In this document: positions 31,016 through 35,116 of the stretch, piece after piece | Layout of the letters: the number at the start of each line of letters is the position of its first letter | Numbering within the stretch: the stretch's first letter is position 1 | Source: Ghiorsea bivora | GTDB lineage: Bacteria; Pseudomonadota; Zetaproteobacteria; Mariprofundales; Mariprofundaceae | Assembly (NCBI RefSeq): GCF_000744415.1 | Contig: NZ_JQLW01000009.1 | Location: 1-64,000 of the forward strand | Reading direction: 5' to 3' | Length of the DNA stretch: 64,000 nucleotides | The notes under the pieces: generated by a model | Told to the model about the DNA's origin: nothing | What the model saw: only the letters and a program-made list of their open reading frames with translations | The model's database searches: none | Position numbers and translations under genes: made by a program

Positions 31016-32185
31016 ATGTTATCCGATAAACCCACCACTGCCTTGTTAGAAGTCGGGTTCCGCCCTTTTTTCTTGGGCGCAGGTTTTTTTGCCATGCTCA
31101 CTATGGCTTTATGGTCAGCCATTTATATTTTCCAAATGGATATTACACTGGATGCTATTTCTCAATATGAATGGCATGCCCATGAAATGTTATTTGGGTA
31201 TGCCATGGCGGTCATTGCAGGTTTTTTACTCACTTCCGTACGCACTTGGACACGCACTGTTACTGCAGAAGGCAAGTCTCTGCTACTGTTGTTTAGCTTT
31301 TGGTTGATTGCAAGGTTTTGCTTTTTGTTTGGTACACAATGGATTGAAATCGCAGCCATTTTTGATTCATTATTCACCCTATGGCTCACCTACATCTTAT
31401 TTCATCGTATTATCAAAACCAAACAATGGCATCAAATCGGCATTATCGCCAAAGTGCTACTGATTACACTGTGCAATATCATGTTTTACGCGGGTGCATT
31501 GGGTTATATGGAAAATGGTGTGGTTTGGGGTATTTTTTCAGCCATGTATATCATCCTTGCCCTGATTCTGACCATGGGTCGGCGTGTCATTCCCTTCTTT
31601 ATTGAACGCGCCACTAACGATGCCGTCAAATTATTCAACACCCGCTGGGTGGATATCCCTAACCTGTTTGTTTTTCTCGCTTTTGCTATCAATGAAGTGT
31701 TTATTGAACATGAAGCAGCATCGGCTTATCTCTCCCTTATCTTATTCACACTCAATGCCTACCGCCTAATTCGCTGGCATCAGCCTATCATTTGGCAGCA
31801 AGGTTTATTGTGGAGTATTTATCTGTCTTCTTGGATGATTACATTGGGTTTTGCACTTTTTGCACTCACCTACTTTGCCAACTTAGATATTCCTAAGCTA
31901 CTGGCAATTCACGCCTTTACAGTTGGTGGCATTGGTATGCTAACCATTGGCATGATGTCTCGCGTTTCTTTGGCGCACACAGGGCGTAATGTGTATGAAC
32001 CTCCTAAAGCTTTAATCTATGCCTTTGCCGCTATTTTATGCAGCGCCATTATCCGTGTTGTATTGCCTCTATTCAATATTTGGAATTATGAAACCTTGAT
32101 AGGGCTCTCCCAAATATTTTGGGTAGCTGCGTTTGCTATTTTCACCATCACCTATGCCCCTATTCTGCTCAAACCCAAACAATGA
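31016..32185 (+). CDS. nnrS: NnrS family membrane protein
   Basis: 389-aa polytopic inner-membrane protein with about 12 predicted helices. NnrS is a heme- and copper-containing protein first found in the nitric oxide regulon of Rhodobacter and linked in Vibrio to resistance to nitrosative stress. Family features include the N-terminal GFRPFFLGAGFFA, the WHAHEMLFGYAMAVIAGF segment with conserved His residues, GRRVIPFF, and HAFTVGGIGMLTIGMMSRVSLAHTGR. No nitric oxide reductase gene is in the window, so its regulation here is unknown. It converges with the PepSY-like gene, six bases apart. Confidence 0.92.
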   Translation: MLSDKPTTALLEVGFRPFFLGAGFFAMLTMALWSAIYIFQMDITLDAISQYEWHAHEMLFGYAMAVIAGFLLTSVRTWTRTVTAEGKSLLLLFSFWLIARFCFLFGTQWIEIAAIFDSLFTLWLTYILFHRIIKTKQWHQIGIIAKVLLITLCNIMFYAGALGYMENGVVWGIFSAMYIILALILTMGRRVIPFFIERATNDAVKLFNTRWVDIPNLFVFLAFAINEVFIEHEAASAYLSLILFTLNAYRLIRWHQPIIWQQGLLWSIYLSSWMITLGFALFALTYFANLDIPKLLAIHAFTVGGIGMLTIGMMSRVSLAHTGRNVYEPPKALIYAFAAILCSAIIRVVLPLFNIWNYETLIGLSQIFWVAAFAIFTITYAPILLKPKQ

Positions 32186-32191
32186 CACTCT

Positions 32192-32929
32192 TTAAATAGC
32201 ACGACGTTTCTTGCGCATCAAAAGCCCAGAAATACTTAGAAACAATAATGAAAAAGCTGTGAAGTCAGGAATAAGCCAGTGTGGCAGACCAAAAAGGCGA
32301 CCTCCGTGCAAATCTTGCATCAAACGTAAATAACGAATATCACTGACTCGACGTGGTAAGATTGCCATATGCTCAGGTGGCGTTGGCACGCGCATAGAGA
32401 CTTTCCCATGCTGTTTTTTGCTTTCTTTTTCAAAAGAAATCAAACCTTCATCTGCTTGATAAGTCGCGGAGGCTGTAGTGACCACAAGCTTATTACCCTC
32501 AGCCCCAATAGCTGTGATCACACCATCCAATTCAGGGCTTATCTGTTCCACCAGTTCGAATGTATTCGAATACAAGTACAATCGATTTTCATTGGCTAAA
32601 ACCCAAAAGGGTTGAAGGTAAACAGCCCCTTTCAATTGCCCTTCTGACACTGCAAGCATCTGGGTATTTATATACCATTGATGTGCCAGTTGCGTAGCAT
32701 ACGCATTGGGTTTATTCACCACTTGATAAGTGGTGGGTACTGCTGGTTGCACATCATACAAATCCAACAACCAACTTTGCTCAATGCTCTTTTGATGCCA
32801 ATTAAAATCTTCTGCATGTTGCAATAAAAAACCTGTGATTGCCGTAAACATAATAATGAATACTGAAACAATAGCGATGCTTCTATGTACGCGCACCATT
32901 GTGCTTCTACTCCAACCGGTGAATCTCAT
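32192..32929 (-). CDS. PepSY-associated transmembrane protein
   Basis: 245-aa inner-membrane protein with one helix near each end (about 15-40 and 218-238) and a ~170-residue periplasmic domain between them. The layout, the N-terminal VRVHRSIAIVS...TGFLLQH and the C-terminal DLHGGRLFGLPHW...SGLLMRKKRR segments fit the PepSY-associated TM family. Some members are ferric-siderophore or ferric reductase components, and the conserved His residues in both helices are candidate heme ligands. The start overlaps the FMN-binding protein stop by four bases. It is the third gene of the Fur-box operon, so an electron-delivery role in iron assimilation is plausible. Confidence 0.75.
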   Translation of the reverse strand: MRFTGWSRSTMVRVHRSIAIVSVFIIMFTAITGFLLQHAEDFNWHQKSIEQSWLLDLYDVQPAVPTTYQVVNKPNAYATQLAHQWYINTQMLAVSEGQLKGAVYLQPFWVLANENRLYLYSNTFELVEQISPELDGVITAIGAEGNKLVVTTASATYQADEGLISFEKESKKQHGKVSMRVPTPPEHMAILPRRVSDIRYLRLMQDLHGGRLFGLPHWLIPDFTAFSLLFLSISGLLMRKKRRAI

Positions 32930-33456
32930 GGCTGCACCAAGCTATCCAACAACAAAGCCATAGTTGTCATCTTTTTTACCGCACGCACTGAAAGTGTTGC
33001 CCCAGTAATGCCATCAATAGTATGGCTTAAACTTTTATCATCTTTTAAAAATACATCTTTAAACTGCTGGGTAAAAAAATCATGTTTAATTTCCCAGCCA
33101 CGCGATTCTCTAAATGCTAACACTTTTACAATCTTTATTTTTTTGTTTATCACGGTTACACCCAACGTAATATTTTTTTCTTTGCCGATTTCATTCAGTA
33201 CCCACACAGTCTTGTGAACACCTTGATTATCTTGCCAATAACGGATACGTAAACCCGTATACTCGTGTTGCAATATCGCTGCGAGCTTGGCTTTTAGTGT
33301 TTTGTCCAACCAAATCACTTTCGCCTTGGGAGGATGACCTGAAAACTGTGTTTTCACAAAAGACATGGGATCCAAATATATGTTATCGGCATGAGCAGGG
33401 CTAAATGCACCAGCTAAGCTCCATGCCGACAACATAAATACAAAAAAGGTACGCAT
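32926..33456 (-). CDS. Periplasmic FMN-binding domain protein
   Basis: 176-aa exported flavoprotein. Signal peptide 1-23 (AHA). The C-terminal part is an FMN_bind domain with DGITGATLS (148-156), matching the ApbE flavinylation motif D-x-x-TGA-T/S; Thr154 is the expected phosphoester FMN attachment site. Similar domains occur in RnfG, NqrC and periplasmic reductases. Coupled to the porin gene by TAATG upstream and to the PepSY-like gene by ATGA downstream. It probably passes electrons from the inner-membrane partner to a periplasmic acceptor. An ApbE transferase is not encoded nearby. Confidence 0.85.
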   Translation of the reverse strand: MRTFFVFMLSAWSLAGAFSPAHADNIYLDPMSFVKTQFSGHPPKAKVIWLDKTLKAKLAAILQHEYTGLRIRYWQDNQGVHKTVWVLNEIGKEKNITLGVTVINKKIKIVKVLAFRESRGWEIKHDFFTQQFKDVFLKDDKSLSHTIDGITGATLSVRAVKKMTTMALLLDSLVQP

Positions 33457-34511
33457 TAAAACTGATAACCCAGGCCCATGTTAAAACCATCTTGGTTGCC
33501 AGCTAACGTATTCTGCTGCTGCACATCAAATTTAAATACGACATCTTCATGCGGCCAATAGTTGGCACCAACATCATATTGGACTTTATCCCCAGCACCT
33601 GTGTCATCCCATATATTTTGCCTAACAAATACACCCCAAGAAGAAGATGGTCTATAACTGGCCTCCAATACAGAACCTTGTGTATCCACACCGTTTTCAA
33701 TGCGCCAATTGGAAAATAAAGCTGTAAGCTTGATGTCAGCCAACTGATAAATAACATGCCCTTCAACCAAGGTTGCAGCACCCAAACCACCTGTCTGCTG
33801 ATCCATATCTTCTTGCTGATTGATGCTTGCACTTACTGTTAACCCTGCCAAACCTGTATATTGCAAACGCCCCGTATATGCTACTGTATCAGCCACAGCA
33901 TTGGCTACACCTTGCCGACCTGCTCGCACTGATGTTGTTGTATTAAGCCCAGAATGTACAGCCACATCCCACGACAATCCATGAAGCGAATTCGCTGAAT
34001 ACATCACCCCACCTTCTCGCCAAGTGGTTGGAATAATATATTTCTCAATGGGATTGCGCTCTGTACCATAAAAGGTTGACGGCTCATGGGTTTCATTAAC
34101 AATACCTACAGGCATCAAAAACATACCTACTTTAATCGACCCAAAGTTTTGATCCAGCTGTAAAAAAGCTTGCTCCAGCTCTATCGCACCAACTTGACCT
34201 GAACCCGCAATCGCATGCTCTAATTCCAGTTCAGAATAAAACTTTATCCGGTCTGAAAACGTATGCTCGACAAATAAAACAAACCTATGAAAATCCAGTT
34301 CATTACTGCCGTTTTGTCGGTTGTTGTAATGCATCTCACCGTATCCACCAAGTGAAGTCTTCGATGGTGCAACACTTTGCGATTCCACATAATCGGCCAA
34401 AGCATTCAACTGCGATTCAAGTTCCGCAATTTTACTTTCATTCGCCATCGCTATCGATGCTCCTATGGGCAGTGTCATAAATAACAATGCTGTTTTTATC
34501 ATTTTTTCCAT
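33456..34511 (-). CDS. Outer-membrane porin-like protein, Fur-controlled
   Basis: 351-aa outer-membrane beta-barrel. Signal peptide 1-23, then a short coiled coil (ESKIAELESQLNALADYVES) typical of trimeric porins, then a Gly/aromatic-rich barrel ending in GLGYQF with the C-terminal Phe needed for Bam-dependent assembly. The overall look is that of OprP/OprO-type porins (GGYGEMHYNNRQ, FHRFVLFVEHTFSD). The ATG at 34511 has an AAGGAG site. A perfect Fur box lies 40 bases upstream, so the gene should be induced by iron limitation. It is the first gene of an operon with the FMN-binding and PepSY-like proteins. Confidence 0.85.
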   Translation of the reverse strand: MEKMIKTALLFMTLPIGASIAMANESKIAELESQLNALADYVESQSVAPSKTSLGGYGEMHYNNRQNGSNELDFHRFVLFVEHTFSDRIKFYSELELEHAIAGSGQVGAIELEQAFLQLDQNFGSIKVGMFLMPVGIVNETHEPSTFYGTERNPIEKYIIPTTWREGGVMYSANSLHGLSWDVAVHSGLNTTTSVRAGRQGVANAVADTVAYTGRLQYTGLAGLTVSASINQQEDMDQQTGGLGAATLVEGHVIYQLADIKLTALFSNWRIENGVDTQGSVLEASYRPSSSWGVFVRQNIWDDTGAGDKVQYDVGANYWPHEDVVFKFDVQQQNTLAGNQDGFNMGLGYQF

Positions 34512-34550
34512 TTTATTTTCTCCTTATATTTTAACAAGGCGGAACGATAG

Positions 34551-34565
34551 TGATAATGATTATCA
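34551..34565. promoter_or_regulatory. Fur box
   Basis: tgataatgattatca is a perfect 7-1-7 inverted repeat identical to the core Fur consensus. The flanks gatag and tttgc extend it. It lies 40 bases upstream of the porin gene and 123 bases upstream of the divergent small heat-shock gene. The minus-strand operon is the likely target. Confidence 0.9.
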
Positions 34566-34687: not shown

Positions 34688-35116
34688 ATGACACTTATGC
34701 GTAAAACACCTTGGCAAGACTTAGAAGTATTACAACATCGTTTGGGTGATATATTCGGTGATGTCACACCTTCAACCACACAAAACACTGAGCAATGGAT
34801 ACCTGCGGTTGATATTCGTGAAACTGATGATGCACTCAACATGCATGTAGAACTTCCTGGCATCGATAAAAAAGATATTACGATTGAAGTAAAAGATGGT
34901 GTATTGAGTATATCTGGTGAACGGCGTTACGAAAAAGACGTGAAAGAAGAAAACGCGCACCGCATTGAACGTGCTTACGGTCGCTTTACACGCAGCTTTA
35001 GCTTACCCCGTAATGTCAATGCTGATGCCGTGGAAGCCAGCATGCAAGATGGCGTATTACATGTTCGCTTACCAAAATTAGAAAGCGCAAAACCAAAAGC
35101 CATTGCCATCAAATAA
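34688..35116 (+). CDS. Small heat-shock protein (Hsp20/alpha-crystallin)
   Basis: 142-aa ATP-independent holdase chaperone that binds unfolding proteins during heat or other stress. The alpha-crystallin domain spans residues ~35-142 with ELPGIDKKDITIEVKDGVLS, the SGER motif, RSFSLPRNV and DGVLHVRLPK. The C-terminal I-x-I is replaced by KAIAIK, an acceptable variant. A strong GAAGGAGG site precedes the ATG. It has its own possible heat-shock promoter and a strong terminator downstream, so it is monocistronic. Confidence 0.95.
   Translation: MTLMRKTPWQDLEVLQHRLGDIFGDVTPSTTQNTEQWIPAVDIRETDDALNMHVELPGIDKKDITIEVKDGVLSISGERRYEKDVKEENAHRIERAYGRFTRSFSLPRNVNADAVEASMQDGVLHVRLPKLESAKPKAIAIK

Follow-up and report, generated by a model that had tools for sequence, protein, structure and literature searches.

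A Fur-boxed porin–FMN_bind–PepSY_TM operon in Ghiorsea bivora as a candidate reductive iron-assimilation module

The operon and its products

Within the window—the whole 64,000-nucleotide stretch of the Ghiorsea bivora genome analyzed here (contig NZ_JQLW01000009.1, positions 1 to 64,000)—a Fur box precedes three tightly packed genes on the minus strand, coding for a porin, a secreted FMN_bind protein and a PepSY_TM membrane protein. The features are the following:

34551–34565, no strand assigned: perfect 7-1-7 Fur box TGATAATGATTATCA, 39 bases upstream of the porin start
33456–34511, minus strand: porin gene; the product has a signal peptide, a short N-terminal coiled coil and a predicted 16-strand barrel with a Glu/His-rich conserved wall
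32926–33456, minus strand: gene for the secreted FMN_bind protein, in which covalent FMN is expected
32989–33015, minus strand: codons for DGITGATLS, the ApbE flavinylation motif (residues 148–156, expected acceptor Thr154)
32192–32929, minus strand: PepSY_TM protein gene; two predicted transmembrane helices, conserved His15, His38 and His208, and a periplasmic beta-rich domain
31016–32185, plus strand: nnrS, the convergent neighbor, not counted within the module

The start of the FMN gene at 33456 overlaps the end of the porin gene via TAATG, and the PepSY_TM gene starts at 32929 inside an ATGA overlap with the FMN gene, so that the three-gene operon with these overlaps described in the first-pass annotation holds in all its coordinates. 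The nnrS gene was considered as a functional partner and excluded, its adjacency having been seen only in Zetaproteobacterial loci. On the other side, a Hsp20 gene (window 34688–35116) is divergent from the operon and also adjoins the module in two further loci of the same genus (L063 and L064).

The middle protein matches FMN_bind in Pfam (5.7e-10, 40.1 bits against a cut-off of 22) and carries the DGITGATLS motif, in agreement with its earlier description as a flavinylation-motif protein; a search against the sequences of solved structures gave nothing significant. Residues G152-A153-T154 and S156 of the motif are invariant in 83/83 FMN proteins. With a signal for secretion, the D-x-x-[ST]-G-A-T motif and a single ApbE in the genome, encoded on a contig other than that of the operon, it has the hallmarks of the FMN_bind proteins flavinylated by ApbE, and covalent FMN is predicted. 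Co-occurrence with ApbE, which the first-pass annotation had proposed to look for, is also seen across genomes: the enzyme is encoded by 81 of 85 gammaproteobacterial porin carriers versus 182 of 284 non-carriers (p 6e-10, uncorrected for phylogeny), and its gene directly adjoins the module in L070, L071, L072, L187, L193, L196 and L197.

The third protein had been described as a PepSY-associated membrane protein with conserved histidines, and both points hold. It matches two Pfam families above their cut-offs, namely PepSY_TM (PF03929, 35.2 bits; cut-off 28.8) and PepSY_TM_like_2 (PF16357, 34.9 bits; cut-off 27), and is modeled with helices at 8–37 and 219–244 around a beta-rich middle (pLDDT 89.5). 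His15, which with an inside N terminus would lie at the cytoplasmic end of helix 1, is conserved in 77/77 sequences, His38 at the periplasmic end of the same helix in 68/77, and His208 just before helix 2 in 76/77. Over both TM motifs, the PepSY profile aligns with FoxB, a ferrisiderophore reductase (7ABW, E 2.5e-9); 7ABW is absent among the top structure-search matches of the model. The periplasmic part of the protein encoded at window 32192–32929 is modeled as propeller-like, and the structures retrieved for it are WD40-type propellers, not PepSY domains.

No Pfam family is matched by the window porin, for which the sequences of solved structures gave nothing significant and PHROGs nothing useful. 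Among 17 of its relatives, eight match Porin_O_P (PF07396, best 1.1e-12), and others match Porin_4 or Porin_7. The model (pLDDT 75) is a barrel of 16 strands whose best fold matches are OmpU and OmpC-type porins, with OprP (2o4v) appearing at rank 25. Thus, of the earlier label "OprP-like porin," the porin part is upheld by the barrel, but the likeness to OprP is weak, given the lack of a Pfam match and the better fit of general porins to the fold. The predicted alternation in strands 1–4 puts E59, H61, D73, H75, E94, E96, E98, E111 and E113 on faces read as lumenal, and E94, E96, E98 and E113 are conserved in 90/90 porins, the median net charge of which is -25. Elsewhere in the protein, seven Arg and one Lys are conserved, and these arginines count against the iron-assimilation reading; the pore of OprP/OprO phosphate porins is characterized by an arginine ladder together with a lysine cluster. 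The alignment has no conserved Cys. As modeled, the acidic, His-rich wall argues for cations and against phosphate, and the porin is not clearly a phosphate-specific channel, clear homology to which had been named as a finding that would speak against an iron role.

The Fur box and the iron genes of the genome

The sequence TGATAATGATTATCA is the only perfect 7-1-7 match in the window and, indeed, in the whole 2,154,483-base genome, which confirms the Fur box claimed upstream of the operon. Just two further sites in the genome lie within one mismatch, and a reversed control pattern gives none. Since one of the two is directly upstream of the genome's single fur gene, the Fur consensus can be regarded as valid in this organism; the other (C5:37843) lies within a pilin-like gene and was set aside as probably not regulatory. 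A promoter-like site at 34556–34528 on the minus strand, matching 9/12 consensus positions, shares bases with the box of the operon through its -35-like hexamer; such matches are barely commoner than expected by chance, so that the scan alone proves nothing, and the overlap fits repression. By this predicted promoter-region box, the operon would be a member of the Fur regulon.

Upstream regions across genomes were compared by taking the best 15-mer against TGAKAATNATTMTCA within 250 bases upstream (maximum score 14). Fur-like boxes, the co-occurrence of which with the gene set had also been put forward as a check, are enriched: a score of at least 12/14 is reached upstream of 41/91 porins versus 11/999 other genes of the same loci, and, if each family is represented by a single median score, in 24/55 families. 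The score is 10 or less for 34/91 porin upstream regions, which is no better than many controls. These patterns suggest that Fur control of the porin modules is common though not universal, or that the box has drifted in about a third of them.

The fur operon of the genome runs on into the gene for its one FTR1 permease. In this region (L092:6003-9252, G000:C6), genes for fur, FTR1, a RibD_C-like protein and an iron-type alcohol dehydrogenase-like protein lie consecutively behind the second Fur box; that a riboflavin-type gene should belong to the fur operon here is suggestive, given the candidate flavin-based iron module of the organism. The search with FeoB_C found no FeoB in the genome; FeoB_N does yield matches, but these look like ordinary GTPases, and the absence of FeoB_C settles the matter. 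The single TonB receptor is BtuB-like by eye. A link between the absence of FeoB and the presence of the operon within Zetaproteobacteria (0/6 carriers with FeoB versus 37/78 genomes overall) was rejected as confounded by descent, with five of the six carriers belonging to one genus in which FeoB occurs in just 1/16.

Conservation, exchange of parts and neighboring genes

An initial search with the FMN protein recovered porin-FMN-PepSY sets in Zetaproteobacteria and in gammaproteobacterial MAGs. Among Zetaproteobacteria, the FMN gene is rare (5/78 genomes, with one more genome having the porin at a contig end), and a profile search with the porin only found it in 85/369 Gammaproteobacteria genomes (74/314 of the good ones) under 51 family labels. 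Loci L123–L202 were selected by the porin alone, and the adjacency of FMN and PepSY genes there is therefore not built in. Where the full porin and 2.5 kb downstream of it were available (82 loci), the FMN gene is directly next in 77, and the third gene codes for a PepSY protein in 71 and for a DUF4405/b561-like cytochrome in five. The FMN gene accompanies the porin gene in 51/53 families; apart from such one-value-per-family counts, the statistics are uncorrected for phylogeny. Co-conservation of the three genes beyond this genome, the first of the proposed checks, is thus borne out. Draft MAGs are the source of several loci, where certain breaks in genes, such as that at the PepSY C terminus in L071, are possibly assembly errors. 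Two loci of one family (L158 and L163) retain the porin with neither an FMN nor a PepSY gene adjacent. A contig labeled Flavobacteriales (L007) carries a porin-FMN-PepSY set 57–68% identical to that of the window, behind a perfect Fur box, and is probably a mis-binned Zetaproteobacterial contig.

The DUF4405/b561-like cytochrome substitutes for the PepSY protein in L066, L069, L072, L196 and L197; in L069, a 176-aa ORF after the FMN gene was discarded as being in the wrong frame, the true gene in another frame coding for the DUF4405-like cytochrome. A second version occurs in L073–L080 (e.g., L073:3802-6478), combining an unrelated DUF6662-like outer-membrane barrel, the FMN protein, ApbE and a four-helix DUF4405/b561-like cytochrome. 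In each of L073–L075 there is a pair of Fur boxes with scores from 12 to 14 of 14, and some other loci of this group have a single weaker box or none. The version with the DUF6662 barrel is the porin-FMN-PepSY architecture with both outer parts exchanged. This exchangeability, wherein the FMN protein stays constant while the cytochrome and the barrel are swapped and Fur boxes or iron-related neighbors are often kept, is the strongest argument for the mechanism proposed below.

Iron genes are frequent neighbors of the module. In L008 and L010, the order is fur-feoA-feoB-porin-FMN-PepSY, and feoB lies near the module in eight loci, in some of them divergently. L069 has the order OprB-ferritin-cupredoxin-FTR1-Fer4_5-porin-FMN-cytochrome, its neighbors resembling FtrBCD; FtrABCD takes Fe(II) only (PMC11966278). 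The module of L071 is divergent from ApbE-DHOR-imelysin-DUF1513, and bacterioferritin-like genes lie beside the module in seven loci, the neighbor names here being partly read from the sequences rather than family-tested. In many Gammaproteobacteria (L127, L135, L139, L160 and others), an erpA/iscA-like gene adjoins the module in 12 loci and a hemJ-like gene in 14, again with names read from the sequence, hinting at a broader iron-cofactor neighborhood.

Known relatives and the proposed function

With a PF03929/PF16357 protein encoded beside an FMN_bind gene, the operon falls under the PepSY-like flavinylation systems as defined by Meheust et al. 2021 (PMC8238504), who also note Fur repression and propose iron reduction. 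These systems include S. oneidensis SO_1188-1190, a Fur-linked operon (PMC2535785, PMC12442407), and C. crescentus CCNA_03155-03159, which supports fitness under EDTA (PMC12004947). The operon has in common with them the PepSY_TM protein, the flavinylated periplasmic protein and Fur control (both predicted here), and the proposed ferric reduction. According to the same paper, the usual substrate of the published systems is DUF2271 (2,833/3,220 clusters), accompanied by DUF4198 and often ApbE, with TonB and VIT1 also occurring as partners (PMC8238504). Unlike these, the module considered here has an FMN_bind substrate, a porin gene, an ApbE usually encoded elsewhere, and a PepSY protein exchangeable for a DUF4405/b561-like cytochrome. 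DUF2271, DUF4198 and ApbE, typical though not obligatory partners, did not come up when the operon and its flanking window genes were matched to Pfam; a porin partner for PepSY-like flavinylation systems is not named in the excerpted part of PMC8238504, and no description of the three-gene porin-FMN_bind-PepSY set was found in the open-access literature searched. What appears to be new relative to the published PepSY-flavinylation iron systems is the partnership with a porin, the use of FMN_bind and the exchange of the cytochrome.

A parallel might also be struck with FoxB (7ABW) and HiuB (PMC13001220), which share with the window PepSY_TM protein the motifs LHR..G...TG and LHxGRxxG (the former present twice in FoxB), the conserved histidines and, by our proposal, iron reduction on the periplasmic side, HiuB being Fur-controlled as well (PMC13001220). 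Both are encoded with a TonB receptor. The FoxB arrangement of four helices per chain, two PepSY domains and two bis-His hemes is not matched by the window protein, which corresponds to half of it, with two helices around a beta-rich, propeller-like domain, and has a porin and a flavoprotein as partners.

We know of no flavoprotein or cytochrome partner for FupA/FupB of Francisella. By analogy, these larger proteins (558 and 482 aa) may nevertheless be compared to the porin of the module, in that TonB-independent passage of iron through a 16-strand porin has likewise been proposed for them (PMC7432831). The DUF4405/MsrQ-type systems (PMC11334425) also pair a flavinylated protein with a membrane b-cytochrome of small size, much as L069, L072 and L073–L080 do; the sets described in the excerpted part of that paper are without an outer-membrane barrel, whereas the present unit comprises all three of barrel, FMN protein and cytochrome, and often a Fur box as well.

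In light of these observations, the first-pass reading of flavin-based iron assimilation is supported, and the operon is probably a Fur-controlled reductive iron-assimilation module composed of a porin, a flavin reductase and a membrane b-cytochrome. When iron is scarce, Fur would leave the box and the operon would be transcribed. The porin, with its acidic, His-rich wall, would admit Fe(III) complexes or Fe(II) to the periplasm in a TonB-independent manner. The PepSY_TM protein, probably as a homodimer equivalent to FoxB, would bind b-hemes between its conserved histidines and move electrons outward from the inner-membrane side to the FMN attached by ApbE to Thr154 of the secreted protein, and the reduced FMN would then turn Fe(III) into Fe(II). 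The latter would be imported by the available inner-membrane transporter, i.e., FeoB in many relatives and FTR1 in this organism. FTR1 is thought to transport iron after Fe(II) has been oxidized, and so the hand-over to it would be less direct than to FeoB. The dimer has to be assumed because the protein has two helices as against at least four in the characterized reductases (PMC13038864). Ferric reduction has likewise been proposed for related flavinylated PepSY operons, themselves targets of Fur (PMC8238504, PMC12004947).

Fur control and the pairing of FMN with a b-cytochrome would look identical in an iron-sparing periplasmic electron chain, wherein a flavin carrier stands in for c-type cytochromes, serving respiration or redox repair in the envelope, and the substrate is something other than iron; moreover, flavinylated domains serve many reductases (PMC8238504). 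We regard this as unlikely, for it leaves unexplained both the porin, the most constant partner, and the linkage to feoAB, FTR1-cupredoxin and bacterioferritin, while the set encodes no other reductase and the membrane protein would still require heme iron. PepSY_TM proteins are also not only ferric reductases—CrpH supports copper supply to oxidases (PMC13038864)—and a Glu/His-lined pore would equally suit Cu or Zn, so that another metal or chelate, copper above all, might be handled with a CrpH-like membrane protein. The Fur boxes, the iron-gene neighbors, the fact that CrpH clusters apart by sequence and has four helices or more (PMC13038864) and the lack of conserved Cys in the porin make this very unlikely. 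The Porin_O_P matches of the eight relatives and the presence of OprP among the fold matches might point to an OprP/OprO-family channel for phosphate or for anions in general, incidentally co-operonic with redox genes; this seems highly improbable for a porin that itself lacks such a match, is closer in fold to general porins, has a conserved, predicted Glu/Asp/His inner wall in a strongly acidic protein, and keeps company with the FMN gene in nearly every family. Finally, an inward relay, in which the FMN protein oxidizes periplasmic Fe(II) and passes electrons to quinone, would suit an organism of an iron-oxidizing class with FTR1 and no FeoB, but is scarcely credible when most carriers are Gammaproteobacteria, the Fe(II) importer FeoB neighbors eight loci, iron-dependent shut-off by Fur is not expected for an energy pathway, and the characterized PepSY_TM iron enzymes reduce.

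The reductive iron-assimilation reading can be extended, tentatively and with somewhat more reserve than confidence, to a widespread TonB-independent, porin-coupled route of iron uptake combining a Glu/His-lined metal porin, a flavinylated periplasmic ferric reductase and an exchangeable b-type cytochrome of the half-FoxB PepSY or DUF4405 type. Such a route would be present in about a quarter of the sampled Gammaproteobacteria genomes and would be the main Fur-controlled entry route in such iron- and hydrogen-oxidizing Ghiorsea as carry the set and have no FeoB. Most Gram-negative iron uptake is attributed to TonB receptors or to unexplained diffusion of Fe(II); if true, the proposal would explain how ferric iron becomes a substrate for Feo without a siderophore receptor. 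It would also give a function to a group of porins for which the libraries used contain no separate family, and of which some members would be called phosphate porins. The question lends itself to direct testing, since the set comprises three small genes, is conserved and occurs commonly. In the window organism, the proposal further raises the question of why an iron oxidizer should need iron scavenging, to which growth on hydrogen, which Ghiorsea bivora can use as its sole electron donor (PMC10734525), may be one answer.
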